Assembly (NCBI GenBank): GCA_037893245.1
Contig: JBAIAA010000701.1
Span: 310,001-374,000 of the forward strand
Length of the DNA: 64,000 nucleotides
Reading direction: 5' to 3'
Origin: Crossaster papposus
Taxonomy: Eukaryota > Echinodermata > Asteroidea > Velatida > Solasteridae
The translations under genes were made by a program, and so were the position numbers. Positions 1 to 19,612 of the stretch are shown here, in pieces (position 1 is the stretch's first letter; every line of letters begins with the position of its first letter). Below the pieces are notes generated by a model. That model was not told the origin of the DNA. It was given only the letters and a program-made list of their open reading frames with translations, and did no database searches.

Positions 1-430
1 TATAATTTGTATGTAAAATATATAATATAATGTGTATTATAAATATATAAAAAAACTATAATTATATAAAGTCATAAATATATATATAAATTAAAAACAT
101 GTATATAAACCTTATTATACATATAATTTATATATAAAACATATAAAGAAATATATAATTTGTATGTAATATATAAAAACATACATTAATATATATTATA
201 TCTTACAAAATATCAAAGTTGCAAAAATCTTTAAAAGTAACAACATATAATTGTTAAAAAATATATTTTAACTGTTATTGTTAATTTAGGAACAATATTT
301 TGGCGTTACAATATAACAAATACATTTATGACAAATATATTAATATTGTACACAAATATATATTGTGTTTTACAAATATATAAAGTTTACAAATATAAAG
401 TGTTGGCCAAATTACGGCACAAGATGGCGC
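1..430 (+). repeat. Left terminal inverted repeat (partial, runs off window)
   Basis: AT-rich sequence that is the reverse complement of 18138-18567. The four 60-base blocks I compared base by base, from about 181 to 430, matched without mismatch. The symmetry stops abruptly after AAGATGGCGC at 421-430. The right-hand copy continues about 250 bp further outward than this window shows on the left, so the full TIR is probably 650-700 bp. Confidence 0.92.
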
Positions 431-595
431 TCTGCTGAACCCGCCGAACACGTGTCGAATCAGCAGATGTCATCGGCGAATTTTGGGTGCATGCATGCTG
501 CGCGCGCGTTCGCGAGTGTACTGTGCCTGCAGTGCTAAATTAGCTAGCTAGCTAGCGCGCCGGCTGCTTTCGTCGTACCGTATAAACACGTAAGA
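421..595 (+). promoter_or_regulatory. Presumed promoter and 5' UTR of the HECT gene
   Basis: A CpG-rich stretch between the AT-rich TIR and the HECT start codon. AAGATGGCGC at 421-430 matches the YY1-type core (AAnATGGCG) common at animal transcription starts. An 8-base inverted repeat, TCTGCTGA with TCAGCAGA, lies just inside it at about 430-466. A GCTAGC-rich run sits at 541-556. No clear TATA box is seen. Promoter function is inferred from position and composition. Confidence 0.5.
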
Positions 596-3500
596 ATGGC
601 GGACCCAAACAGTCCTGTTCTGCAACAATTGCAGGACAGTGTTTCGACGCTGTCTTCTCTACTTCGAGAGTTTGGGAGGCAGCACACCGCCTTGAACAAC
701 TCGGTAGGCTCAGGCTCGTCAAACCCCGCGGCCGCCGTCACAACAAGTATGCCCCGACCAGGTTCAGCAGCAGCGACCCCGAGGAGGGGGAGATCTGCAC
801 CAGGTACGTAGTCATGGTAGTAATAATAGTATGGAGAAGTACGATGTACGTACATTTACATTTAATATGTACACTTTTTTGTAGGTCGTAACCCAAATTC
901 AGTAATGAGTAGTACACTGTACATGTAATTTACTTTTTGTTTTGATTTACACAAGTTGCATTAGGATCGGGTGCACACGCGTGTTTTATGGCATGTATGG
1001 AGGCCTGTATTTCATTGTATTTTGTTAACTGTAGACGTGGACTGGTTCCCCCCATCCCCCACCCTCTCCTCCTCTCCCCATGCATTGTGTACTATAGTAT
1101 GTTTACAACATGTGGTTCCTGTCCTGCTTGACTGCTTAGGGTTAGGCTCTGTTTTTATTAAAACAATTTCTTAAAGGAGCTTTATTTCTTAAACTTTAGC
1201 CTATTTAAAGGACTGTTTGTTTAATTTCCATAAATTCTGAGTTAAGTTTTTTATTTTTGTTTAATTCTAGTACTAGTAGAAGTAATGACCATATTATTGT
1301 GTTAGAATTCTTTAAAACAATTTTTTGATTACAAACATACTAACTTTGGCTACATTTTGCAGAAAAAAATGGACAATAACATTACTTGGCTTCATATTTT
1401 CTTAATTAGACTAATTATAATCCTAATTAGAATGCTAATTATTGTTTACTTTCATTAAAAGTCACAGTTAACATTAATTGGAGGCCAACTGTTGTTGGTT
1501 TCACTTTGAAAAGCATGTAAGGTTTCATAAAAACTTGAAAAAGCCTTTATTATAAAAGGTCATTTTTGCAAGTATTGCAGGATGTGTGCCCCTAGTTATT
1601 AAAGATTTTATTGAGTTTAAAAATATCATAATACATTAACAGAAAGGGCAATTAGTCGTACAGTCGTACAGTTAGAGCAACCTGCTTATATAAAGTATAA
1701 CTGTTTTAAAAATGAGAAAAATTTGCCAGATATTTGTGTAGATACAATTTTCTGAAAAGGCCCAAAGTTACGTAATTCCCTATTGTCCAAGTGTTGACAG
1801 CCATGACCTTGAAAAGTGATTTATGGCGACCTTTCCACAGTTTTTAATTTAGTAATTCTTGGCTTTGATGCACTGGAGTGCTATGAAACTCTTTCAACAG
1901 AAAGAAAACAGACAAAAAGCCACAGTGTCAAAGGTTCAACACTCTAGCCTAAGTGGTTTGTGAAACAAAAGAACTTGTAAAGTGAGATAAGTGATTGATG
2001 GTTGCTGATTTTTTTTCTCTCCAGTTTTAACATGCAAGTAATAATTGATGATTGCTTCCACCTGTTGCCATGGTTAGTTTATGATTGTTCTATGAAAGTT
2101 TCTTGATTCTCCCTACCAGTGACAGTGCCAGAAGAGCTACAGCGGGTCTTTGGGAGAGGCCAAGGACAGAGGCCTTATGGTATTCCCTCCAGGCGTGGAG
2201 CTGTTGCTGGTCGTTCTGGGACTGCAAGAAGCTCAGGTAATCATGGAGGTTTAGACATACTGTCTGACTGTGTAGTCTGTAGCAGTATTGAATAGGTCTA
2301 TTTTTTTACTTTTTTGCCTTTTTGATCATGTGCCTGAGAAAATAATGCTTTGTCATGCACACCAACTACTAATTTGTTTTACTGGTACGTTTTTATATAT
2401 ATTTCTTTAATAAATCTTGAACACTATTTTATTTCTCTTGAAGGGTGGCAAATATTATTTGGATATCTTGATATTCCTCTAAATTCGTTTATCGCGCACA
2501 CATTTTCCCCTGTAAAAAATTGAACTACAAGGGCAGCATCACAAAATGGATAAAGGTAGTCACATGACCACTTTACATCTTCACATTAAGTTACATGTAC
2601 TTCACATCGAGTAAAAAATTATATGTCGAGAATGTCAAGAGTTATCTTAAATTTTCTTCAATATATGCATGCATCTACATGTTTTTGTCTGCTTTTGTAT
2701 TGTTACATCAATTTGTGTGCAATATTATAATGACTTGTACCCGAGGACTGTATGCTTTGTTCTTGAAAGGGCAAGGGCACCAAGGCATTGCTTTTCTTCT
2801 GGGCACTTCTAGGTGAACATTTAATTTTTCTATTGCAACATTTCAAGGGCACTAAGGCAATGACCAGGGGTAATGGAGGCAATCACCTCTGTTGCCTCCG
2901 TGAAGTATCAGGCTTGTACTTAGTATAAATATGGGAGAGTCAACAAATTCAACTGGGAATATTAAGATCATTTTTCAATGAATAGGTAATAAGGAATCCG
3001 ATAATTTAATTTGGACCAAAGATGGCCATCTTGGCAAGCAACAAAGTGGTCAAAAAGAAGACAGCAGACAGGAAAACTTGACACGTCATAATCTGATTGG
3101 GACAATGCAGTTCTGTGTTTCCTTATATTTTCACCACATCAGCGAGTGATGAGAAATCCTGGGGTGGAAAGTCATATTGAAGGCTGTAAGCAAACTCGAT
3201 CATCTTTTTGCATTCTGCATTTAATGTGACCACTGACTGTAGGATTTTCAAGTGAGCACTTAGGGTACATTTGTACTAACTAAAATACCTTAGTACAGAA
3301 GTTTTTAACATTTCTTTGTAAGCAATAGGAATGTCTATAATTCTGTGTATACTACACTAATTTGTATTTTCTTTAAAACGGATATTACCTTAATTTATTT
3401 TTCTTTTAAAGCGACATACTTTAAAGATGTAGTCCTGTTCTTTTTCTTTTAAAGCGACATACTTTAAAGATGTAGTCCTGCTGGAGTATGAGCATGAGAT

Positions 3501-6500
3501 GGCCCCAGCAAAAGAAGATCTCCTTGAGAAGGGGTTAGTGATTACGGCAGTTGCCTTTACCAAGGCAATGGATTCCAGGGAAATTGAGGAGACAATAGAG
3601 GATGCCCTATCTTCCCACTTGTCTACCCTTAGCAAACCACGGTAAGCACAGTGTGCTGAATTTGAATTAAAGTATCTGTAGCAGAGAACTTTTAATTTTT
3701 AGAAGTCAGTTGAAAAAAAATCCTTATATTCATGCATGCTTTGGAGGTCTCGGATGAATAATAGTCGAAGTACTGATAACTTGTAAAATGTCCTCATTGT
3801 GAAATGAACATGAGTATGTACATGTTGTGGTTGTCCAGAACAACCATGAATCAAAAAATTAAAATTCTGGAAAGCTTGCCAGAAAGAGGAAACCATTGCA
3901 TTGTTAACAATTTAGAATTTTAGTGTTGTTCTCAGACAGAACTCATGAATTAATGTAACTCAAAGTATTTAAAAATGCATTACTAGTCAGAAGGAGCTGA
4001 AATTGTTCAAACTGTACATGTATTACAATTACATTTTTCTTTAAATTAATTTGTTACAAGAAAATGCTGTTGTACCCATCCTTGGCCTAGGGGCAGTCGT
4101 TAATATTTAGTATGTTTATGTTATTTGAAAAATAGCTGCCCAGATAAACAGTGTCTCGTGTTGATATTTAGTTATAAGCAGTCTTTTTTGCATACCCTCT
4201 TTTATTTGTAAAATCCCTCGATGCCCTTCCATCTTCTTCCCTCACAGTTTTGAGTTTGTTAAAGTAGCCCGCAAGCATGTCAGCATCCCGATCATAAGAC
4301 CCAACCATCTTTGGAATGGTGCTGCAGTGAAGCACTTGGCAGGCCAGGGTGACCTCTTTGTTCGTGCAACTGCACCACTACCCACCAGTGAGGTACAGCT
4401 TCTAAATTAAGTACACAAAGTACAGTGTGTATCAAACAAAAGTTAATCCGAATTCAAGGATTGATATGTTAATATGGCAAGGTTGCATTTGGATTACCTT
4501 TTTTTTATACGCACTGTATAATACCATGTGCATGTACATTTCCTATATTCCTGTGTATAGATCTGTGGATTTGTCTGAAAAGATTATGATTAGAAATACG
4601 AGGTCTTTTCTTTTTTTGCAGAGATTGCAAGGGAAAGTTCAATTAACACAAACGCCATAAGGAGAGATGTTCAATTCTCTAGTCTTGCTCACTGTCCTGA
4701 CTGTGCTTCTTCGCTCATGATGAACTGAAATGGACAATTGCAGACAGCACTGACTCACAGTGAAATTTATCAAACAAATTATCAATCCATAATGAATAGA
4801 AGCATAAAACAGCGGTACGCTGGGGGGGGGGGGGGGGGGGGGAGGGATGGGAGGGGGTAAATGCCCGCTGTACGCTTTCGCTTTCTGAAAAAAATGTCGA
4901 TTTATTTTCCCGCCCGCCACAGCTGGCATTGCGCGCATCCCACCCACGGCGCGTGCAACGGGCCGAGCGAGGGCGCTGCATGGCCAAGCCGGTCGCGCCC
5001 CGGCCTCGCATCGCGTATACGTATTGTGTACAGCAGCGCGGCGGTATACTTTACACATGTAAATTATACTGCCATTGTGCAATGAAAATGGTATGTACAT
5101 GGGATATGTACACGTACACCACGTATCCGCTGCGTGTTTTTAACAGCCGGCCACGTACGTGCACGCCATGGTTCAACTGGCACTGACAATAGCGGACAAT
5201 AAATATGCTGCACGCTGCTGCTACTGCTAGTCGTGCTGTTGACTTGGATACATTATCTGTTTATTTTCCATGTGTAGTGACAGTCGTACTCGATTAAAAC
5301 ACTGTTTGCCTACATGTATATGTAAAATAGTGTGAACAAAAATCAAGATTTTCTTCGTACACTTTTAGGGGGGGAGGGGGGGGGCTAGTTCTTAAAAAAG
5401 TGTACGGTTTGTACACTTGGAAAAATGTTGATAATTGTGAACAGCCCCTAAAGTGTGTTAAAATCACACACATTAAGTGTGAAAAATCACACACATATGC
5501 AATTACAGCCCCATTGAATATGCATTTGTTCCCCTTTTATTTGAAGCTATCCAGACTAAGTGATGATGAAGAATTGCCTGCCATTGTTTTAACCCCCACC
5601 ACTGTCTGTGTCTCTACTCCAACCTATGCAAGTGTTTCAACCCCTACTAATACCAGAGTCAGTTTCACAAGACCTACAATTGTTTCACCAAGTTATGAGT
5701 AAGGATATCGGAATGGTCATTTCAACACAGTTATAATAGCGTTATCATAAGTATAACACTCAACCCTCCTTTCATGATTTACCAGTTTTACTTAAATGCA
5801 TACAGTGCTCAATTGATTAGTTTTTGTCTTAGAGATTATGGTGTGATTCACATATTGATATGAGCTATTGGCAGTGTTGCAGTACTTGAGTCTTGACTTT
5901 CAGCCATGTCTGTACTTGAGCCAAGTTTTGCCGGACTAGGATTTGGACTACGCCCTGAAGACTTGAACTTGACTTTGATTTGTGCTTTGTGTACTTGTAC
6001 TTGGCTGTTACAATCAAACTAAGAAAGTTTCCATGATAGCTACCATGAAGTGTAAGGGCATTTGCTAATCTTAGTATTTATAAAGCTGTAACTTCTGAAC
6101 TTACCTTGATATTGAGCTATAGTTTGTACAAAGATGAATTTGACTGAAAGTGTTGTATGCAGCTAAATTTTGTTCCCAATATAATTTAAGGGAATTAGGT
6201 GGACTGACGTTATAATAACATACACATCACAAATCTTCAAGGTAATGTGCATCCTAAATTCTACTTTCTAACTTCACAATTTTTACATAACAGAGCCTAT
6301 GAACAATTGACAACTGATCAAGTGGATGAAGAAGTCAGTGAAGAGATCACTTCGAGTTTAAATATTCTCTCAACATATGTGCCATACACAGTGTGAGTAA
6401 AACTAATCCATTTGTGCAGTTCGTGGATTTTTGTTTTCATTTGTAAAACGATTATTGGTTCTGAAAAACACTGCCAAGTGTACGCCATGGAAAAGGTACT

Positions 6501-9500
6501 GAGTTCAGTGTTTGACTTGTTTTACAGGTCGTACAGTTTTACTATTGGTTTATATTGACCTGTGGATGAGGGTCCTGTTTATGATCCTGAGTTTTCATGT
6601 TGGATTGTAATATGAAGGAAGTGAATGCAAAAACAACAATGCCATATTCATGTTGTATTTTTTTCTGTGACCATTAAATCTGTCTTGGGAGGAAGAACAA
6701 ACATTACCAAAAGCAGCATTTATTAGAACAATGCTCGATCTGTAGTCATGTAGTCCATCAAATTTAATATGATGAAGGGAACATAACTACAGTTAAATTC
6801 AGGGCTCTTAGACATGCATGTAGATGGGTTTATGGGCTTTTTCTTACTTGCCATCCCCTTCCCAGTAGGCCTATGGTAAAGCTTTTGGGTATCTACTGAC
6901 CACAAATGTGGTTCTATATAAATTATTAACAGGAGTGAGAGGAGATGAAGTTAAAAATGACCTAGGGGGTACCTGGTCCTCAGTTTATTGTCTGTAACCT
7001 ATTGCACAGCGTTATATGGCAAACTGATACGATGTTTCTTTTTCTACATTTTATTTCAGAGATGAAGCTGTGATGAAACAGTACCTATATGAGTGGAGGA
7101 ATCAGATTGATGGGGATGAAGAACCAAGGCGGCTTGTTGTGAGGCGGAGGAGGCTGTTGGAAGATTGCTTCAAACGATTTCGAGGTAATGTTTTAATTCA
7201 AGGTAATATATAGTAAGCCGTGGAATTGCATGTTTGCAGAAACTGTTTGAAAATAATTCTGAATTATTTAGGACATGGGTTAATATGAGCAGACAATGTG
7301 TAATCTAAAAAAGATTTAAGAAAAAGTAAAAACACCTAAATGTACTATATGCATAATTAAGCTGATAGGCCATCATCTTTATAATGTTATCTAGAATGTT
7401 TCAAATGCACCCCTTGTCACATTGCCCTAAAAGTGTAAGGTACTTCAACTTGAAAAATATAGAAATTGTGCTAAAACCATAACTCTATTCTTTACTCTTT
7501 CAGTTATGGTTATATTTTTAAAGTGTGTGTAGTAAAAATTAAATACATTTATGTATTCAATATTTTTATATGCAAAGAGCAAGACTTTAAATCCCATATT
7601 GTTAAGATAACTGATAATAGCAAATTTGCTTGAAACTTTCTTATTGGACAATGATTGGCACATCCAATGCCTGCCTGTAAAAAAATACACCCGAGCTATT
7701 AGCGATTAACTCCACAAGTCTTGCATATGTACCTGAAGTAACCGATGAGTGAATAGAATAATTTATTCATTAACAAGTCATCAATACTTTGTGTATAATC
7801 TATCCATTATACACACTTAATCTTGTCACAAAGTCAGGTTATACTATTTTAACTCATTGCCTGCACAAAACCTGGGGTTCGTTTGTTAAAGTCATAGGAA
7901 ATTATGCAATTTGGGAATTAACCCTAACCCTCCCGGCTCGTTTGGCTAAGACATAACCTCAATCCTCCTATATCCTTCTGTAGTAAAGAGTTAAAAGCTC
8001 AAGGAACCTGGATCCTTCTAAATCCTTCTCATTTCTGCTAGTATGGCTATTGCCCTGAATCCTTCTAGATCCTCCTGCCTGCTGGGGGATGTTTTGGGGG
8101 GTCTGTGTAAACTGATTACTTATCCAACAAATTACCCTCAAACAAATGGAAGTGCCCAGTACAATGACTTTTTCATACCAGGACAAGGGCCACAGAAATT
8201 CCATTGTATGCACATGTGTTTCCTATTGATGATACATAAACATACATTGTCCAGGGACCCTTTCAGCACTGACCCACTGACCTTGCAGTATACACTTACC
8301 TTCCAGTACACACATTTGCCATGCACACAAATGCAAGCCCTAAAAATAACCAAGTCAGAAGCATGCATTCTCCATGCCATTACAATGTACACAAATGCAA
8401 GCCCTAAAAATAACGAAGTCAGAAGCAGGCATTCCCCATGTCATTACACTGTACACAAATGCAAGCCCCCTCCCCCATAACCTAGATCCTTCTGGATCCT
8501 ATTTTGGGCAAGCTGCATACAACCTCAATCCTTCTCTTTCCTCTTGTGTCAAATACAGCCCGATAACCTCAATCCTTCTCAATCCTTCTCAATCCCTCCC
8601 ATAGCAAAACCCCATCTGCCCTCAATCCTTCTGGATCCTCCTCCACTGCAATGTCCTAATAACCTCAATCCTTCTAAATCCTTCATTTTGTACAAGAGGA
8701 TTTAGAAGGATTTGGGAGGGTTAGGGTTAATGGGTAAATCCCCATTTCGTTTGTAAGTGCTATGAAATTAATTATGTTTTCGGATATTTGCAGACGACAA
8801 TACCATCGTGCCCAATCGGAAGTTGCAAGTAACATTTTTAGGAGAGGCAGGTGTGGACACTGGTGGTTTGTCCAGGGAATTGTTTACACTAGTCACACCT
8901 ATGCTGAGGGACTCGGGGCTTTTCAGGGGAACTGAAGGTGAGTCATACATGTGTATGATAATACCAACGGAGTTGGATAAGCTCTGAAAACATTATTTTA
9001 TTCTTTTGGCTCAAAATTATAAGGTCCTTAGAGTTATTGGTCTTCCCTCTAAGGTCACATAACATGACATGCTCAATTATGTACATTTGCTTCTCTTTTT
9101 TTTAAGATGTTTTTTTTTTTTTTTTTTTGGGGGGGGACACCCTGTAGAGTCAAATTCTAAAACATTGCAAAGGATATACGTTAGATCATTATTATGATAT
9201 TCATTAGGATGTTTATAAGTTCCATGGAAATGTGAAATCGCCAATTACAAAATGAAATACCTCAACTCCATCAAGAGGTAACTTCATTCCGAAATATTTT
9301 GATATTTTGTGACATGACATTGAAGGCCTGAGCTGCAGCAATTTTTCTTTGAATGCATCATGCAATGTTAACTCTGTGATAGGCCAACTGTACTACTGCA
9401 CAAATATGCAATGCACACATGAATTTTGGTTTTTTTTTTTTTTTTTCATGTTGTTTTTGGCATCAAATGTAAATGAATGGCAATGGTTGGAAAAGTAATA

Positions 9501-12500
9501 CTGTAAACCAGGGTGATTTGGTAAACTTTTTGATTGTTTTCGTGGATCACATTATCTCCAGAATGCAAGAATTGCAGCTTACTGGTTATCTTAAGCAACT
9601 ATTAGGATACAAATTGTCTATGTACACAAGGGTTATGTTAGAATGCCTTTGTGTACACAATTTTTGTCTCCTAGTAAGTGGGTAAAATAGTCCTGGCCCA
9701 CTCAATTAGGTATAGGCAAAAGATGAAAACAAGTAATATTTGATCTGTCTTGCCTCGCAGGCTTAATGGTCCCAGCAAGAAGTGCATGTGCTGTGGCAAA
9801 CCAACAGCTCAGAACCGCAGGGAAGATTTTGGCAGCTTCAGTTCTACATGGTGGACAAAAATTGTCCTTTCTTAATCCTGCAATAGGGACCTACATTTGT
9901 AATGCAGAGAGTCCAGTTATGACCATTTCACTCATACCAGATGAGTCAACAAGAGAGAAAATAAAAAAGGTAAATAAAAGTTATAATCAGTCTCCTCAAA
10001 TGAAATTTGTTGCCAACTGAACCTCATCAGTAAGCAAGCCTCCCCTATGGGTAATGTAGCAATTTTTGTTTTCAAGATCAGGCAGAGAGGTTGTTTCATT
10101 CACACAGACATTCAATAAAAATGTGTTCTTCAACACTAGATCTGTGATTGTGATAGTGAGGAACTACTGGAGCAAGCAACAGAAGATGCCATGGAAATTC
10201 TGCAGGAAATTGGGTGGAGGAGAAAGGTCACACTCGCAAACAAGAAAGAAGTAAGTTAGAGTACAAGACAGTGCATGCAGTGGGTATATAAACAGGATAA
10301 TTGTTATTCGTATTGCTGTTATTATTTGTGCAATATCACAGCATGCAAAAGGAAGTTCTTGATATCTTTTGTTGTCAGTTATCTATTATTACCATTATTA
10401 TTTTAATTTATGTTCAGTCTCATATGCAAAAAAATGTTATTTGTTTTATGAAAAACTTGGAAAACAAATTTCTTCTGTGCGTTCATAAAAACAATACCGT
10501 GTAAATTGTGGGGGCATAAACTAAACGATCACATACATTTTATAGACGGTGACAAATTGTGTACAAACTTTGCAACTGTATGTAATTGCTGAATGATAAG
10601 CCCTTTGTTTGCCACAAACAATTGATTAAAACCCCATTATCCATGCCATGCATTCAGAGGCAATTTTTCAAAAAGATTGTGTGCAAAAAAGTGACTGTCT
10701 TCAGTTTTTTCTTTGTTCAACCCAAAATTATATTTAAATGTACCCAGTCAGTTTCCCTTTCGGTTCATTACTTGATTTTTGATTAAGTGTGCAATCTAAT
10801 GATCTACACAGGTTGTACATGCTGCATGTTACTACGAGCTGATACATAAACAAAAGGGGGAGCTAGATGCACTGGTGCAGGGATTAGACTTCTTCTACCT
10901 AAAGAAATTTGGAAAGAACAAACAAGGTAATTTGACAAGACATTCACGCAATATTGTGTGACTACAAGTCTTGTTATTACAGCATTTCAATTCCTAAATG
11001 GATTTTTTTACAAAAAATTCTCAGGTTTAGATTGTCAGGTATAGATGGGATGATTCCATTTTGGACATGATACTTCTAAAGTCAAAGGTCACAGTTTTTG
11101 CAAAGTAAGTGTTGTTATTGCCATTTTTCTCTCAACAACCCTCGGCTGGATTTCGTTAATACTCGGCCCAGGTGTAGACAATCTGGTGTAAACAAATAAA
11201 ACATAGGGCGAAATCTGGTGAGGGCAAATTTCATTTAACTTGACATGAATGCCTCATTAACATGATATTCTAAAAGTTATTCAATTGTGATTATAATTCG
11301 TAAAACTTTAGTCCCATCATGCATACTTATTTGTCATACAGTTTTTGAATGATTAATCTATCTCATATGTACTGTAAATGAAATAATTAGGGTTTAAGTA
11401 AAACATGTAAAACGTCAAGGGTAAATGAATTTACCAGGAAGGCTTATGCCAAAATGTAGTTATGTTTTCTGATGAGCCAAGTCTATTGCTCGATTGTTAT
11501 CCCAAAAAAAGCAATGTTTGTGAGGATCTGTGTACAAAAGCAGTTGAGAGTTAACCAGTTGTTAACAGTCGGTTAAGTTGCTTGAAGATTGCCCAACAGA
11601 TTAAAGTTGTATTCAGTCAAAAATTACCAACATTACAGGAATCAATTGATGAAATGCTATTTCCCAAAGATGTGGTAAATCAAATTTGATTGCATCATTT
11701 TGTGGACTGGAAAAGTATACAGCTGTGTATATTTTAGCACTTTTGGCTTAGAAACAAACATGAGTAAAATGTGACAAGAAATAGTTGAAATGTTCAGCCC
11801 AAGTACACCCACTGTATACTCAGTGAATTTGTTATCTGGCTTTTATGCTGTTCGTATGTATAATGTTGCATATTTTTCATTGTTAGATTTCATCCAAGGC
11901 CTGTTTGGACAGATGCAGGACCTTGATGCCAACTGTGTTTTTGACCTGTTCGACATAGACTACAGCCCTACAGGCTCCAACAACAGAGCTAAGGAGGAAG
12001 ACACTGTGATGCACCTGCTAGACTTCATTGAGAAGTGTGATACTGGAGGTATTTATATGTGCTGTACAATAAATTTCAATGTCGTTCTGTCACAATTAAA
12101 ATGTGACTATAGTACTACATCGCATGCTTTTGGTTTTCCGTAGTATTTTGTGCCTTTATTAACTAAGGAGGCTCTTTACATTGACTTTGCGCCTTTTATA
12201 GCAGATACCACTGTTCAGTATGCTCCATTACATTTTTCCTTTAATTTACTTGCCCATTTCAGATCCAACAGTTGAAGACTGTACTCTCGGAGAACTTCTC
12301 CAATTTCTGTCTGGTGGCAGGACGGTTCCACTTGGTGGATTTACAAACAAACCTGTCATCATGTTTCATGATGACAGGTTTCCAAGGTCATCAACTTGTG
12401 TTCTTACCTTGCAACTACCAAGAGGTTGCACCACAGAGAAAGAATTTCAGGATGTAATGATTTATGGCATGAGAAATGCTCCTGGTTTTGGCCTAGTGTA

Positions 12501-12501
12501 A
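596..12501 (+). CDS. HECT-domain E3 ubiquitin ligase, G2E3-like, 13 exons
   Basis: Coding exons with GT-AG borders and matching phases: 596-803, 2120-2236, 3455-3641, 4248-4392, 5547-5698, 6294-6392, 7060-7184, 8794-8937, 9761-9969, 10140-10250, 10812-10926, 11887-12048, 12263-12501. They total 2013 nt, or 670 residues plus TAA. The start is ATG in AAGAATGGCGG. Residues 1-110 are low-complexity with a possible coil; 110-225 are a conserved-looking segment (YFKDVVLLEYEHEM); 225-300 are acidic and Thr/Pro-rich. The HECT fold runs from about 345 to 670: the N-lobe begins near FLGEAGVDTGGLSREL, and the C-lobe has the thioester cysteine in SSTCVLTLQLPRG (C637) and ends NAPGFGLV. HECT ligases accept ubiquitin on this cysteine and pass it to a lysine of the target. 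The target here is unknown. ATTAAA at 12553 may be the poly(A) signal. It resembles the multicopy G2E3-like proteins annotated in fish and invertebrates. Confidence 0.93.
804..2119 (+). other. HECT intron 1
   Basis: Non-coding 1.3-kb intron with donor GTACGT and acceptor CTACCAG. It is AT-rich with repeated TAATTA words around 1400-1445. I see no gene, RNA or recognisable transposon in it. Confidence 0.7.
2237..3454 (+). other. HECT intron 2
   Basis: Donor GTAATC and acceptor CTTTTAAAG at 3453-3454. Short open frames here (for example around 2595-2816) have no recognisable protein content. Its last 57 bases include the first copy of a duplicated acceptor, described separately. Confidence 0.65.
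3398..3480 (+). repeat. 40-bp tandem duplication spanning the exon 3 splice acceptor
   Basis: 3398-3437 and 3441-3480 are identical 40-mers with an offset of 43 bp. Each contains a polypyrimidine tract, an AAAG acceptor and the first 26 exon bases. Only the second acceptor (exon starting 3455) keeps the reading frame. The first acceptor (exon starting 3412) leads within about 13 codons to a TAA formed by the duplicated tract. Confidence 0.9.
4821..5240. other. G-tract followed by GC-rich, CpG-dense island in HECT intron 4
   Basis: A run of about 22 G is followed by a CpG-dense block at about 4900-5010, unlike the AT-rich introns around it. It then passes into ACGT-rich sequence with several GTACATG and ACGTAC words. 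It could be an inserted element end or an internal promoter. No TIR or target duplication was found, and open frames across it have no recognisable domain. Confidence 0.45.
7918..8730. mobile_element. TTAA-flanked MITE with telomere-like TIRs
   Basis: TTAACCCTAACCCTCCC at 7918-7934 has its exact 17-base reverse complement at 8714-8730. Reading TTAA as the target duplication gives termini of CCCTAACCCTCCC. TTAA targets with CCC ends fit the piggyBac pattern. The interior has no gene but many copies of AATCCTTCT/AATCCTCCT near both ends. It also has a hairpin near the right end, AAATCCTTC facing its complement around 8665-8712. It is inserted in HECT intron 7 and should leave with the intron on splicing. 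Family assignment is inferred. Confidence 0.7.
8320..8467. repeat. 64-bp tandem repeat, about 2.3 copies
   Basis: ACAAATGCAAGCCC recurs at about 8327, 8391 and 8455, giving a period of 64 bp with a few substitutions between copies. It lies inside the TTAA-flanked MITE. Confidence 0.8.
9103..9138. repeat. Poly-T/poly-G low-complexity run in HECT intron 8
   Basis: A long T run passes directly into a G8 run. The rest of intron 8 (8938-9760) holds a second T run near 9430 and nothing else I can name. Confidence 0.7.
10927..11886 (+). other. HECT intron 11
   Basis: Donor GTAATT and acceptor TTGTTAG. This is AT-rich intronic sequence of about 960 bp. I see no gene or named repeat in it. Confidence 0.65.
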
Positions 12502-12786
12502 AACATATCACTTTCAGTGTTGGTCATTTATGATGTCCAAGTACTTGCTACTATTAAACAAATTCATTTGGAATAGATTTTGAAGGGATGATAGGTGTAT
12601 AGTTATTATGATATTTGGTACGTGGCCTAAACTAATTTAGCACACCATTTCATATTTTTTTCAGGAAGATTTTACACCTCCTCTAATGACATATTGTCCA
12701 GTGAAGCATTCATCCCTGACTTTCAAAATAACAAGTGCATGCAGTTTATTTTTTCTATTTACCTGCCTGCCAAGGTTTTAACTTAA

Positions 12787-13165
12787 AGGTAGTATACACC
12801 ATTGGTAATTGCCTAAATTATCATGAATGGGTGGATTTGGGGGGTTATATTTCATAGTAAATGTCATTTAACTGACCTGTCCGAAGTTTTACAATCATGG
12901 TTGCTGAGAAAAGCAAGAAAAACGACTTTCGTTTTTAACCGGAATCTGGCAGTTTTTCTTATGTTGTTTTTGTTTTTTCGCGATCGCCGTCCGGCAATAA
13001 TGAATTTTGGTTTATACAATTCAATTTTTTGGAACAATTACATGATATCTAGGGCAATCGTTCTGCTGGATGCCTACAATCATTATTTACTTTCAAATAA
13101 TTAAGATATTTCTTAATAATTCGGTAGTAAATTTTTTCGATATCTGCAAATGGTGTATACTACCT
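12787..13165. mobile_element. 379-bp MITE with TTAA target duplications
   Basis: The left end AGGTAGTATACACCATT (12787 on) faces a right end reading ATGGTGTATACTACCT up to 13165. TTAA flanks both sides at 12783-12786 and 13166-13169. The interior is non-coding. TTAA targets are used by piggyBac and Kolobok superfamilies; the purine-rich AGG tip fits Kolobok better. It lies just downstream of the HECT stop, inside the large transposon. Confidence 0.8.
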
Positions 13166-13169
13166 TTAA

Positions 13170-15015
13170 CAAATATTAACCTACCTGTACTTTGTTTTTC
13201 CTAGGAAAAATTACGAGTAAACACAGTAATATGTAGTTAGACATACAGTGTGTTAAAAAAAACAAAAAAAACCCTATCTTTTCAGGTTAATTACCCAACA
13301 ACCAAAGTTTCGACCCCATAATGGTATGTTCAATTGAAACAAATCTTGTCTTTTTTTCATATGATATGAAATTATGATGGTAGACAATTTGAAATTGCTA
13401 CTTGAAGTTGCAGATTTAGTTTCGTTCGAGATAAGTAACTATTTATGTATGTACACATCGTAACTAGAAGAATGTCTGAGGAAAGTTGGGCTTTTGTGTC
13501 TGTTAAGCTATCTGAGCTAATTTTGTTAAAGTTGTGCCAATTATCACAGATAAACCTGAACGGAAAAAGAAAAAAAAATGATACATAAATAACAGATTCC
13601 CTCTAATTGTAACTACCATCCACCTGTTCTGAGCAAACATATTACTCTGACACTATGAATTCAGATTGCCTCTGCTCGGTCATCCATAACCATTCCATCA
13701 TACTTTCGCTGTCGCATGAAAGATGATAGAATGATGTCTCTAATAAGGTACACACTATTTAGGATTTTTTTCTGATCAATTTACCCCGATAAGATGAGTT
13801 CCTTTTTGTGTTGGACAGTGTATATATTGTATGATGTTAGCCAGTTTGTTGTGTTTCGTATTTATCCAAAGACTTAGTGGATTAAGGGCTGCATTTAATT
13901 GCAACATTCCATCTCCGATGTGATAATAAATCCAAACTTTTTTATAGAGCATTGTGCAGTAGTTTTAGGAAATCAAAATGCCAAGTTCTTTCCAACATGT
14001 TTGCAATCATTGACAGAGATTGTCTTTTTTTTACCACTTTTAAATATTGTTACCAGGGCCATCCCGGAAATCAGGAATTTGTTTGATAAGATTCTCCTTG
14101 CCCAAAAAGAGTCATTGAAGTAATCGGGAAAATTAATGCAACAATTTCATAAAAAAACGCTTTTTGGTTCTTTTTATTCACAACACATAAAATCCCAAAA
14201 ACCTTTTCCCATCAAGTCCTGAAGATAATTTAAATGAGTGATTGATTAGAAAGAAAACAAATGGGGCGACTCAAATTGCAATTTAGGTCTCGCCTGCTAA
14301 TTGCTAAGCCCCCGTAACATCTACATGGTAATGCGAGGGTTTAATTGAGGTGATTTACATTATGCCAATCTTGTTGGAATTCACCATTAATATAAATTAT
14401 AAGTTACATTTTGTACTCGACATGTTCCGTTTTTAGAAGCATTTCTTCTGTGAGAAGCTCTGGTTGTTTAGGGCCCAATTCCTTATAAATCATCAGAGGA
14501 TTTGTGACTAAGGATGTACCATTAGCATATTATAAACTGTTGTCTATCTGCATGATTGTTTGTAGTATTTTTTGGTTAACAATAAATTCTTTGTTTCATG
14601 TTACAGTTTGAAAAGCTATTTGTTGTGTGTACAGAATTTAATGCATTATGATTATTACTTTATATTAAGTTGTTTTTGGGGGGCAGTGGACTGGGGATTG
14701 AGTCTTTCAAAATCCATGCCAGATTTTGAAATGGGTCAAACTATATTTGGCGAAAAAGTTCTGTAGTGACAAATCAAACTTCATACAAAACCTGTTTAAT
14801 CTCAAATTTTTATTTTAGCAAAAATAGGAAAGTTCTCCTAACTGCACGCATGTGCACTGCAAAATAAAAGATAATTAGAGGGGTCCAGTTAGTGAAAGCA
14901 TGCAACCAACAGAGGGGAACTAAAGCAATAGCTAGCTAGCTAGCCTCCACCCTCCCTCACCAGACTGAATCCACTGATTCCCGTGTTTTGTCATGATATG
15001 ACTAAGAATAGCAAA
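13170..15015. other. Intergenic space between the convergent HECT and integrase genes
   Basis: AT-rich, with no supported gene. Open frames here are short and lack domains. On the minus strand an AATAAA (plus-strand TTTATT near 14809) lies about 200 bp past the integrase stop and is a plausible poly(A) signal. A GCTAGC run occurs at about 14930-14944. Confidence 0.6.
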
Positions 15016-17075
15016 TTAGTACATTTGTTGCAAAATATTTAAAACTTGAATGAAAATATTAATACCATAGTTATTATCATTTGCCAAAGCATGAATGTGA
15101 GACAAATCACCGAAAACCTCTTCACTAACATTTAACTGAATTTGTGGAACAACAACATTATTATCTGTTTCAATAGGCGCTAGTACATCACCATCAACTC
15201 CATACATGACTAAATCCAATGGCGTAACTTCTGCATCGTCAATTAAAACAGAAGAATAAAACAACTGAAGTGGTGATCTTCCTTCAGTTCTGATGATGTG
15301 ATTGTTCCATGTTTGTTGAAAATGCATAAGTGCTCGATTTATTCTTGGTAAAAATACAAAATGCAAGGCATACAGATGTAGATCACTATCACGATTAAGA
15401 ATATTGTTTTGTTCCATGTGCAAAAACAGTCTACTGAATGTTATTGTCACAGCACTATTGACGTCCCTCCACAACCGTTCAATTCTTTGATTGTGGACTG
15501 ACCTTCCTGCTATTAAACTACCTCTACCAGTTCCACGTTGTTCCAACATAAATTGTGCTATTTGAAAGTTTTCGGTCCCAAAATCTGTTCGTACTCTTTG
15601 GGGTAACCCGTAATGTTGCACTCCAATTCGAAAACAATCAAGTGCTGTTTCACCTAGGTTATTATTGTTGCATTGGAGATATGTGACAGTTCTAGTACAG
15701 CCGTCGATGCCTCCATGAATGACCAGCCTCCAATGTATAAGTTTATGATTTCCGTCAACATGCCTACAAGTAAAATAACAAAGCAAAAATCAAAAAACAA
15801 TAAATGTAAACTTTCAATTTGTTTGGTTTGATTTTAATTATTTAATCACTAGTTCTTGGTGAACCCTTTAGTACCAGCTGTGTGATGTAAGACATGGACA
15901 GCCTTACAAATATGTTGCACTGTGTGTGTGCAAATCAGTTTGGAAATCTCAAGGTCAAATTCAAACCCATGTGATGAACAGCTGTGGTTTGTAGGAAAAT
16001 GCAAATAAAGTGAGAGTAGATCAGAGAACTAATTTGAACAACATGAATTGAAAAAAGGGAACAATTTGTTTCATGTGTTGTATAAATAGGAGAGGTCCAT
16101 GATAAACATCATTGCCATTTAGTAGGAGTACGCGAGTATCAATAATGAGTAAAACAAACTATGAGTATGACAAATTGACATTTTCTAAGAATTTCTATTT
16201 ATAAGTAATTCAATAAAATACATGTGTTTATTTCCCTTCAATGCTGGTATCTGACAGAAATGATCATGTCTGGAGCATACTTTATATTACAATAAACAAA
16301 TGCACCCGAGAATATTTACCAGAGGCCATTGGCACGCTGGACATTGTAATGTCTCCTGTTAATGTTGTAACGTCTTCGGAGTGCAGTCGACAGAGGGTTC
16401 ACTCTGTGTATGCTGGCACGAACTCTGTGGCGCTGCAGATGTACACCTTGGTTTCTAAGAGAACCCAGTATCATCGACTGCCCTGTAGTTGGTAAAATGT
16501 CTAAGATCTCCAAAACCAATGCGTCAATCTCATGATCAGGCATATGTGTGTATGAAGTAGAGCCAAAGGGCATTCTTAGTTCATGCCGCCTGTTTCTTAT
16601 TGTCCTGACAGAAACTCCAAAAATTTCAGCAATACTGACCCAACTGAATCCTAAATCAGTGAGAAATTCAAGTTGATCTTGTGTTATATTTATGCGTGGG
16701 CGACCAACAGGCATTGCTATTGGTGTACACAGAAACACATGCTCAGCATCACACCCACTGGCAGTGGCACTGTCACTTGCATCAGTGCTACCAGTACTAC
16801 CAGTATCACTATGGTCAAGACCAACATCACTGAATAATTCAGCAGCCATTTGTAAATGTTCAGTAAGAGATGTCAGTTCTTCCTGAATTCGTAACAGATA
16901 ATCATATGAAGTTTCAGTCAAATGGTGACCAAATGGTGCAGATCTTATATCAAAGTGAGCTTCTTGATGATGTTGGTCATGTTCGACTCCTGGATCGAAT
17001 GTTGTTAATCTAGCCATAGCCTCAAAAAGTTCATTTGCTAAACCATTGATTACCTCAAGGTATGCATGCCCAGTG

Positions 17076-17106
<31 letters not shown>

Positions 17107-17563
17107 TTCTGGTAATGAAACCAAGGATCCTTCAAAAGCGCTCAAGGCACTGTAGCTCGTAAGCCAGAAGAAACCCGTAGACAGAGGCTGTGTCAGCCAG
17201 GAACACCGGGGCAAACCCCTTCTCTTAGCGAAGAGTGTTCTGGGTTCTTTTACGTGCATTATACAATTTTATAATGTTATAATTTGCTAACCCTTGTAAC
17301 TCTACTTGTAGATTTACGTCATGTTGATGCTGTCCATGGTGGGCATGGCCATTAGTACGCCGACTGAGTTCACTAACACATCCAGATGCCTGCCCCACGT
17401 ACGTGCGCAGGCGGTCGACGAATAAATCCAAATCGTCAGACCTCGAACTTCTGTTTGTTCTTTCTCGTCGCCGTACCGGAGGCATACTCACAACAGAAGG
17501 GACAACATGTACCACAATCCCATACCACAGTAATATTTTGGCAATCGTGGTCATACTAGTCAT
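15016..17563 (-). CDS. DDE integrase/transposase (HTH plus rve-like core) of the large transposon
   Basis: Two coding exons on the minus strand: 17563-16320 and 15763-15016. Donor TG|GTAAAT and acceptor TTGTAG| restore the phase at ...NGLW|HVDGNHKL. The upstream part has an Arg-rich stretch (MPPVRRRERTNRSSRS) and a likely helical region. A helix-turn-helix follows GRPRINITQDQLEFL and includes SIAEIFGVSVRTIRNR. The integrase core has D in HVDGNHK, D in RTDFGTEN and E in NQRIERLWRD, the last two 34 residues apart, a DDE arrangement. The domain cuts and joins transposon ends. The first ATG is 17563, with an in-frame stop just before it; ATG at 17485 starts directly at the basic stretch. A 240-bp insertion at 17042-17281 puts an in-frame stop after residue 112. 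The frame reopens, with ATG at 17017 offering a 481-residue protein that keeps HTH and core. Activity is therefore uncertain. Confidence 0.88.
15764..16319 (-). other. Integrase intron
   Basis: A 556-bp intron separating the HTH exon from the catalytic-core exon. Both borders are canonical on the minus strand (GTAAAT and TTGTAG). I see nothing else in it. Confidence 0.8.
17033..17290 (-). mobile_element. SINE-like insertion (about 240 bp) with 9-bp target duplication
   Basis: ATTTGCTAA occurs at 17033-17041 and again at 17282-17290, bracketing 240 bp that interrupt the integrase 5' coding region. The insert contains a TTA microsatellite at about 17078-17106, which reads as a TAA-type run on the minus strand. 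It also contains a CCTTGAGCGCTTTTG segment like tails of some invertebrate SINEs. The reading frame resumes in the same phase beyond the insert. Calling it a SINE is inference; the duplication and the interruption are seen directly. Confidence 0.6.
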
Positions 17564-18147
17564 TATTAAGCCTTACACACTCTATAGTCTATCTGCAGTT
17601 TAATCCGGCCGGCATTTGTCTCCGACTACACCATGTACGCATGGAGAAATAAGACAACGTACGTGAGCAGTTACCTAGCTAGCTGTAGCTGTACTGTACG
17701 CGCCCCGTCCGGTGTATATTATTATGTACGTGTAATGTGCTGTCCCGCGCGCGCTTTTTCTTTCCGTACCACTAACGCGTCAATTTGCCCGTTTCATTGG
17801 AATGGGGCGACTTGAATAGAGACTTTTATAACTTTTTCTATAAGACCCTATCTAGATGAGATTATTAACCAATAATTTGGGTTAATAGAAAAAGGTATAA
17901 AAGTCGTGTATACGAAAAACTAGGGACTGTATACAATTAACTAGGGACTGTATCCATTAATTTTGGTGAATTATGGCTGTCAACGTCGTTGGTCTTCATA
18001 CGGTTCCGCGTGTATCGATTCGTATTGAAGCGCGCGCTTTGGTCTCCATTCAAGTCGCCCAATTCGAATGAAACGGGCAAATTGACGCGTTAGTGGTACG
18101 GAAAAAAAAATCGCGTCCCGCGCGGCGGGCTGTGAAAGCGCCATCTT
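17564..18147 (-). promoter_or_regulatory. Integrase 5' region with nested inverted repeats
   Basis: This CpG-rich region lies between the integrase ATG and the right TIR. An imperfect inverted repeat of about 70-75 bp has arms at about 17750-17825 and 18041-18116, sharing CCGTACCACTAACGCGTCAA. A second hairpin, GACTTTTATA to TATAAAAGTC, lies inside at 17821-17905. AACTAGGGACTGTAT is directly repeated at 17918-17932 and 17939-17953. AAGATGGCGC reads inward on the minus strand at 18147-18138. These could be regulatory, or a MITE nested beside the TIR. Confidence 0.5.
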
Positions 18148-18567
18148 GTGCCGTAATTTGGCCAACACTTTATATTTGTAAACTTTATATATTTGTAAAA
18201 CACAATATATATTTGTGTACAATATTAATATATTTGTCATAAATGTATTTGTTATATTGTAACGCCAAAATATTGTTCCTAAATTAACAATAACAGTTAA
18301 AATATATTTTTTAACAATTATATGTTGTTACTTTTAAAGATTTTTGCAACTTTGATATTTTGTAAGATATAATATATATTAATGTATGTTTTTATATATT
18401 ACATACAAATTATATATTTCTTTATATGTTTTATATATAAATTATATGTATAATAAGGTTTATATACATGTTTTTAATTTATATATATATTTATGACTTT
18501 ATATAATTATAGTTTTTTTATATATTTATAATACACATTATATTATATATTTTACATACAAATTATA
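18138..18567 (-). repeat. Right terminal inverted repeat (part paired with left copy)
   Basis: Reverse complement of 1-430 without net indel. The outer part of the TIR continues to the right beyond the paired segment, but its left partner is outside the window. Confidence 0.92.
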
Positions 18568-18815
18568 TATTTCTTTATATATGTTTTATATATAAATTAT
18601 ATGTATAATAAGGTTTATATATATGTTTTTAATTTATATATATATATGATTTTATATAATTATATGTTTTTTATTTATAATACACATTATATTATATATA
18701 TTACATATAAATTATATATTTCTTTATATATGTTTTATATATAAATTATATGTATAATAATGTTTATATATATGTTTTTAATTTATATATATATATATGT
18801 TTTTATATAATTAAT
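18401..18815. repeat. AT-rich tandem repeat, about 150 bp by 2.8 copies, in the TIR
   Basis: Units starting ACATACAAATTATATATTTC occur at 18401 and 18554, and a slightly changed one starts at about 18703, giving periods near 153 and 149 bp. The third copy ends near 18815, where less biased sequence (CCCCTTTGGCTTGCC) marks the likely approach to the transposon tip. Confidence 0.8.
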
Positions 18816-19334
18816 TTATTCCCCTTTGGCTTGCCATAATTTCAAACCCAGTTGTGACTTATTAAAAGGGAAATGCACTTGGTACATTTGCAAAAGGGCT
18901 AGAGAAAAAATGGTTTCCAATGTTATAGACCAGTCACATATCCACTATATAAGCCAACAAATTGTTTCCCACTATGAAAAGCAAAGGCAGATTTTGTTTG
19001 GACTTTTCTTCCGCAAAACTGCTCAGGATTAATATGTTTTAATACATCATTTATTTATTGCAATTACCAACGTGAGTTGTGTAAACTCTAGTGACAATGT
19101 AAAGTGACGAGAGGTAACTGAAAGGAAATGAATGGCATAACAAGTAACGACCGTTTTGATTTGAAAGGAATTTTGCTTCTCATCGTTCTTATACTTTCCT
19201 ATATTAAAAATCACCAATTCGATTGCTTTTATAATCAATTTCCAATCTGATTTACTATTTCAAGCACAGGATTTTCGGGATTTTTCTATTTGTCAGGATT
19301 AAGTATTACATGTACACAGAATAAAGATGGTTTT

Positions 19335-19612
19335 GTTTCATGGTGGGAGGGGTTGTTTCATGTTGGGGGGGGGGGGGGTTCATATTGGGGGAGGGGGGGA
19401 GGGGTTGTTTCATGGTGGGGGGGGGGTTGTTTCATGGTGGGGGGGGGGGGGTTTCATGGTGGGAGGGGGGTTGTTTCATGGTGGGGGTTATGGGGGGGGG
19501 GGGTTATGGTAGGGGGTGGGGGGGGATTTCATGTTGGGGGGCGGTTCATATTGGGGGAGGGGGGGAGGGGTTGTTTCATGGTGGGGGGGGGGGGGGTGTT
19601 TCATGGTGGGGG
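19335..19612 (+). repeat. G-rich VNTR, unit 1
   Basis: Repeats built on GTTTCATGGTGGGGG with uninterrupted G runs up to about a dozen. A subrepeat starting GGTTCATATTGGGGG occurs twice. The plus strand has strong G-quadruplex potential. It lies about 440 bp beyond the kinase stop codon. Glycine-rich open frames across it are a consequence of the repeat. Confidence 0.95.

Follow-up and report, generated by a model that had tools for sequence, protein, structure and literature searches.

A probable IS3EU-like transposon carrying a HECT ubiquitin ligase gene in Crossaster papposus

Introduction

To our knowledge, the cargo enzymes with which DNA transposons counter host control are few. For the IS3EU superfamily, PMC10045372 gives TA..TA termini and describes transposases that are devoid of an HHCC motif. 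The termini of the fungal IS3EU elements are given as TAYGG..CCRTA. In the fungal TET+ elements, a TET/JBP gene lies between genes for a transposase and an alpha-kinase that point in opposite directions; the cargo has been proposed to aid escape from silencing (PMC12730594). A layout of two convergently oriented genes within one transposon is, in turn, described for the RAG-like transposons (PMC7204232).

Here, we analyse a window of 64,000 nucleotides of Crossaster papposus DNA, the first 18838 positions of which are most of one DNA transposon that encodes a HECT-type ligase next to an IS3EU-like transposase. The words “hect”, “ubiquitin” and “ligase” do not occur in the main text of PMC12730594, and the literature that we searched contains no paper in which such a transposon is combined with a HECT ligase, although a description that is unpublished or confined to a database such as Repbase is possible. 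The original prediction knew of no transposon family defined by this gene pair; the integrase itself is of a known, IS3EU-like kind.

Results

The element is bounded by long inverted repeats, the inner parts of which are in perfect agreement: window positions 1–431 are identical to the reverse complement of 18137–18567 at 431 of 431 bases, and BLAST lengthens the repeat to 446 bases at 98.9%. Chance is excluded as the origin of a 431-base inverted repeat. The right arm (18137–18838, − strand) is 702 bases long, with the inner 431 bases paired with the inner part of the left arm (1–431, + strand); it contains AT-rich subrepeats of ~149 bp (18393–18813) and closes with the sequence GGCTTGCCATA (18828–18838), the last 11 bases of the element. 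Downstream lies a tandem array (18839–64000) of units of 6711–6720 bp (6.71–6.72 kb) that are 99.3–99.6% alike in pairwise comparison; seven units fall in the window, the last of them cut by the window end, and the six that follow the first lack the element. Each of the seven units possesses an open Ser/Thr kinase reading frame of 534–540 aa with a long proline-rich part built of 18-nt repeats, and the first unit also contains a G-rich minisatellite (19333–19612; periods of ~22–52 bases).

The array fixes the right border of the element. Homology to all six other units begins exactly at 18839, and upstream of the junction each of these later units carries different DNA (...CTGTATTTT); since the match to six uninterrupted units starts at 18839, the border is placed at 18838, and the insertion lies within the tandem kinase-gene array or at its edge. 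Because 271 of the 702 right-arm bases find no partner inside the window, the element would measure ~19.1 kb, given arms of equal length. The extent of 1–18838 given in the original prediction is therefore correct at the array junction and too short on the left, where the arm is cut by the window and its outer ~271 bases lie beyond the window start; the left end is predicted to read TATGGCAAGCC... there. Were the element IS3EU-like, ATTTCA (18839–18844) would be the expected target-site duplication.

Two genes converge within the inverted repeats, as the original prediction had described: a HECT gene on the + strand and an rva_4 integrase gene on the − strand, with stop codons at 12501 and 15016. 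The HECT start codon is located 165 bases inward of the left arm, and that of the transposase ~650 bases inward of the right arm, 364 of which belong to a nested 364-bp inverted-repeat element (17752–18115) that is flanked on both sides by the 9-bp direct repeats TCCCGCGCG and is a later insertion. A further nested inverted-repeat element, whose inverted ends TTAAAGGTAGTATACACCATT match exactly over 21 bp, lies between the two genes (12783–13169). The sequence AAGATGGCG, which we take to be a YY1-like promoter motif, is present at the inner edges of both the left and the right arm. Among the 27 stop-to-stop open reading frames of at least 80 aa in 1–18838, nine contain exons of the HECT or transposase genes; the remaining 18 were all scanned and returned no Pfam match at E ≤ 0.01, which bears out the assertion that, apart from the two short nested elements, nothing else of substance resides within the element.

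The HECT gene comprises 13 exons on the + strand (596–12501) that join in phase to encode 670 aa with a single stop at the end. Exons 1–6 (596–803, with the ATG at 596; 2120–2236; 3455–3641; 4248–4392; 5547–5698; and 6294–6392) were placed by eye, without a homologue, from reading frame and splice signals only. Homology guided the placement of exons 7–13: 7060–7184, in which the N-lobe starts; 8794–8937, with the GEAGVDTGG stretch; 9761–9969; 10140–10250; 10812–10926; 11887–12048; and 12263–12501, which furnishes the C-lobe, the catalytic Cys637, the Phe at position −4 and the stop. In the spliced protein, the Pfam HECT model aligns to residues 385–669 (E 3.1e-14) and Itch aligns over residues 301–668, with Cys637 of the PRSSTC motif in register with the catalytic cysteine in PRSHTC of Itch. 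The Phe at −4 that is typical of HECT ligases is present as F667 of 670. The N-terminal half of the protein has no Pfam match above cut-off, and NCBIfam gave no name to the HECT protein or to the core of the integrase. Taken together, the gene reads as full-length and open, with N-lobe, C-lobe and catalytic cysteine, and its product is a putative ubiquitin ligase. An exact 43-bp tandem duplication (3398–3480) spans the splice acceptor of exon 3, leading to two possible acceptors.

The transposase is encoded by three exons on the − strand that together furnish a 553-aa protein; the two introns, of 252 and 556 bases, have GT...AG borders. Exon 1 (17306–17485) starts with the ATG at 17485, exon 2 (16320–17053) encodes a candidate helix-turn-helix near residues 193–217 with a Pfam match under the curated cut-off, and exon 3 (15016–15763) encodes the DDE core D325, D365 and E400 and ends with the stop. 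Pfam rva_4 spans residues 296–479 (E 4.9e-73). The catalytic residues are spaced by 39 and 34 residues and are invariant in a four-sequence alignment of the window protein with three proteins from other contigs (39–46% identity). A search of the 553 aa for an HHCC or CxxC motif returned no match. With its three catalytic residues in place, the DDE transposase is intact-looking at the sequence level. A structure prediction, made for the L001 protein (see below) with two window exons, reached a mean pLDDT of 44 and was set aside.

The right terminus, ...GCCATA at 18838, fits the published IS3EU terminus patterns, as the only end of the element inside the window. We compared the DDD/E core, the TA..TA termini, the inverted repeats (>30 bp in the fungal families) and the absence of HHCC; the DDE core was judged by its Pfam domain, and likeness to IS3EU is drawn from published descriptions rather than from reference proteins. 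On this footing, the right terminus and the long inverted repeats appear to fit the IS3EU superfamily.

We then looked for relatives, which come from stray, apparently eukaryotic contigs in bacterial genome bins. A motif scan of genome contigs returned three stretches: L001 and L002, on sponge-symbiont contigs and both with rva_4, and L003, a false match in whose genome rva_4 has zero matches. L001 and L002 derive from a Cycloclasticus bin (G001) obtained from a poecilosclerid sponge, a genome with three strong rva_4 matches and a fragment. In a whole-genome search of 311 genomes from the order of this bin, strong rva_4 matches were present in two, the new one on contig 78 of G250. The whole-genome searches overlap: 18 genomes yielded G001 as strong and G011 and G019 as weak at ~24 bits; 369, 101 and 398 genomes yielded one each (G001, G250 and G001, respectively); and zero matches were found in 36 and in 350 genomes, so that G250 is the only strong match added to G001. 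No relative was found in scans of IMG/VR, nor among the plasmids scanned with the L013 integrase. Bacterial bins of the species-level genome collection contain contigs (L001, L002, L013, L014 and L015) that appear to be eukaryotic and bear spliced genes of transposons.

The G250 contig provides a second HECT/transposase pair. This contig, L013 (contig 78 in its entirety, 8233 bases), is intron-bearing and encodes a HECT reading frame of 371 aa (2123–3238, + strand; Pfam HECT E 1.5e-6) and, on the − strand, a transposase whose exons join over a 268-base GT...AG intron into an open 401-aa stretch reading LWHIDGHHKLIRW. The two genes are convergent with 185 bases between their stops, and over 254 aa the L013 integrase shares 47% identity with the window integrase; as the other element end of L013 is not on view, its HECT gene is placed beside the transposase rather than bounded within an element. 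HECT (PF00632) occurs in one of the 311 genomes of the order, on the L013 transposase contig itself. PF00632 gave zero matches in G001, in a search in which no control matched, and the L013 HECT protein found nothing besides itself in G001 and G250.

Outside the window, five contigs carry a transposase or transposase fragment, and a convergent HECT gene is present in one of them, L013, and in none of L001, L002, L014 and L015. Only L013 and L015 extend more than ~1 kb downstream of the transposase, so the pair is found in one of two; the others, with 518 bases (L001), ~0.9 kb (L002) and none (L014), are too short or decayed. In L015, ~2 kb downstream of the transposase are without HECT, and a downstream reading frame is weakly similar to aspartyl protease and reverse transcriptase, below the Pfam cut-offs. 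The original prediction had named relatives that consistently lack HECT as evidence against a two-gene family; L015 goes that way within its ~2 kb, and L013 goes the other. The two-gene transposon itself is supported, and another convergent pair, of the kind that the original prediction asked to be counted, occurs once, in L013.

Next to the gene order, the terminus is partly shared. Allowing at most one mismatch, GGCTTGCCATA is found once each in window positions 1–19300, L013 and L001, and not at all in L002, L014, L015 and the 45 kb of the array (18839–64000). The L013 match (5893–5903) is identical at 10 of 11 bases, is in the right orientation and lies 126 bp from the first transposase-side reading frame; that in L001 (2661–2671) is in the wrong orientation for the L001 transposase. 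With two mismatches allowed, the search loses its specificity: the array yields seven matches and every contig yields several, because of which a candidate in L014 (9 of 11 bases, 130 bp ahead of an ATG) is weak by itself. The sequence GTAACAAAA behind the terminus match is common to L001, L013 and L014.

The two HECT regions are far more divergent than the transposases, with 75 of 338 aligned residues identical (22%). Their similarity amounts to 11.2 bits by phmmer (E 0.83 when scaled to the PDB set) and to E 6e-5 over 48 aa by BLASTP, and the local alignment score of 71 exceeds those of all 500 shuffles. An N-terminal domain shared by both proteins, suspected by eye, was rejected (alignment score of 24 against a shuffle mean of 26), and the regions upstream of the HECT domains bear no significant similarity to each other. 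An identity of 22% does not establish one shared HECT acquisition; the sequences are compatible both with rapid evolution against a host target and with independent capture on two occasions.

Discussion

A model emerges that we regard as probable: a young cut-and-paste transposon of the IS3EU/GingerRoot type, likely autonomous, in which the gene for a HECT E3 ligase is an accessory. The inverted repeats would supply promoters for both genes. The transposase would bind the element ends with its helix-turn-helix and, going by its superfamily, would cut and join in the manner of IS3 and retroviral integrases, with each insertion making a 6-bp target duplication. The ligase would act in trans, ubiquitinating a host silencing, chromatin or repair factor to the benefit of the element; that it instead tunes the level of the transposase is less likely. 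A functional partnership between ligase and transposition, as the original prediction proposed, is plausible, and we consider host restriction, silencing or repair factors the most likely targets of the ligase, a role favoured on the analogy of the TET/JBP cargo of the fungal IS3EU elements.

The ligase gene could instead be a passenger that an IS3EU transposon captured from its host and that has no role in transposition; retention of 13 exons is as in a captured host gene, the window HECT is nearer to host-type HECTs of solved structure (TOM1, 37.5 bits; Itch, 33.8 bits) than to the L013 HECT (11.2 bits), and L015 lacks HECT within ~2 kb. We hold this to be unlikely, though the most serious competitor, given that a convergent HECT recurs beside a related transposase in L013 as the sole HECT match in 311 genomes, and that the window HECT gene has stayed open across 670 aa. 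Decidedly less probable is a self-control module in which the ligase regulates the transposase itself, through turnover or complex disassembly. Both genes start inward of identical inverted repeats and may therefore be expressed together, which would suit such a module, but the HECTs have diverged far more quickly than the transposases (22% against 47% identity), contrary to the expectation for a ligase linked to a conserved transposase.

Least of all do we credit that 1–18838 is more than one element, with a host HECT gene and an unconnected integrase element lying by chance between two short repeat copies in inverted orientation. The left end does lie beyond the window, and short inverted-repeat elements are common here, with two of them nested; yet the arms are identical at 431 of 431 bases, the right arm reaches the exact array border and ends in a sequence that fits an IS3EU terminus, and the same pair is present in L013, where a similar terminus lies upstream of the transposase. 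An extension of the accessory-gene model, in which a widespread animal IS3EU lineage is armed with fast-evolving HECTs that degrade host silencing or repair factors as a ubiquitin-based counter-defence, is possible and at present doubtful.

With the two genes side by side in L013 as well, it seems that some transposons come equipped with a means of tagging cell proteins. Some marine animals have large HECT gene expansions. A HECT-bearing transposon is a possible source of repeated HECT genes in animal genomes and, if the extension to a widespread lineage is true, these expansions may in part be copies of transposon HECTs. A ubiquitin ligase cargo would also constitute a different route from that of the TET/JBP cargo, namely protein removal in place of DNA demethylation.

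Set beside known systems, the ligase shares the HECT domain and the aligned C-lobe cysteine with HECT E3 ligases such as Itch, NEDD4, E6AP, TOM1 and HUWE1, and departs from them in residing within a transposon and in an N-terminal half without a Pfam match over cut-off. RAG-like elements have inverted repeats and, as described, the same convergent two-gene layout; by Pfam (rva_4) the window transposase belongs to an unrelated superfamily, and its partner is a HECT protein rather than a RAG2-like one. The window element resembles the fungal TET+ IS3EU elements as described in carrying cargo, and its right terminus fits theirs, whereas the cargo here is a HECT ligase and the scanned reading frames contain no alpha-kinase or TET. 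Its likeness to the IS3EU/GingerRoot elements lies in a DDE transposase without HHCC and in long inverted repeats, and its right end, CCATA, fits their terminus. From these, the window element differs in its HECT gene, in an inverted repeat of at least 431 (probably 702) bases and in its spliced transposase. As the integrase is of a known, IS3EU-like kind, the novelty, within the literature searched, resides in the cargo rather than in the class of transposon: a probably recent two-gene transposon in which the IS3EU-like part is already known and the HECT ligase is what is new.
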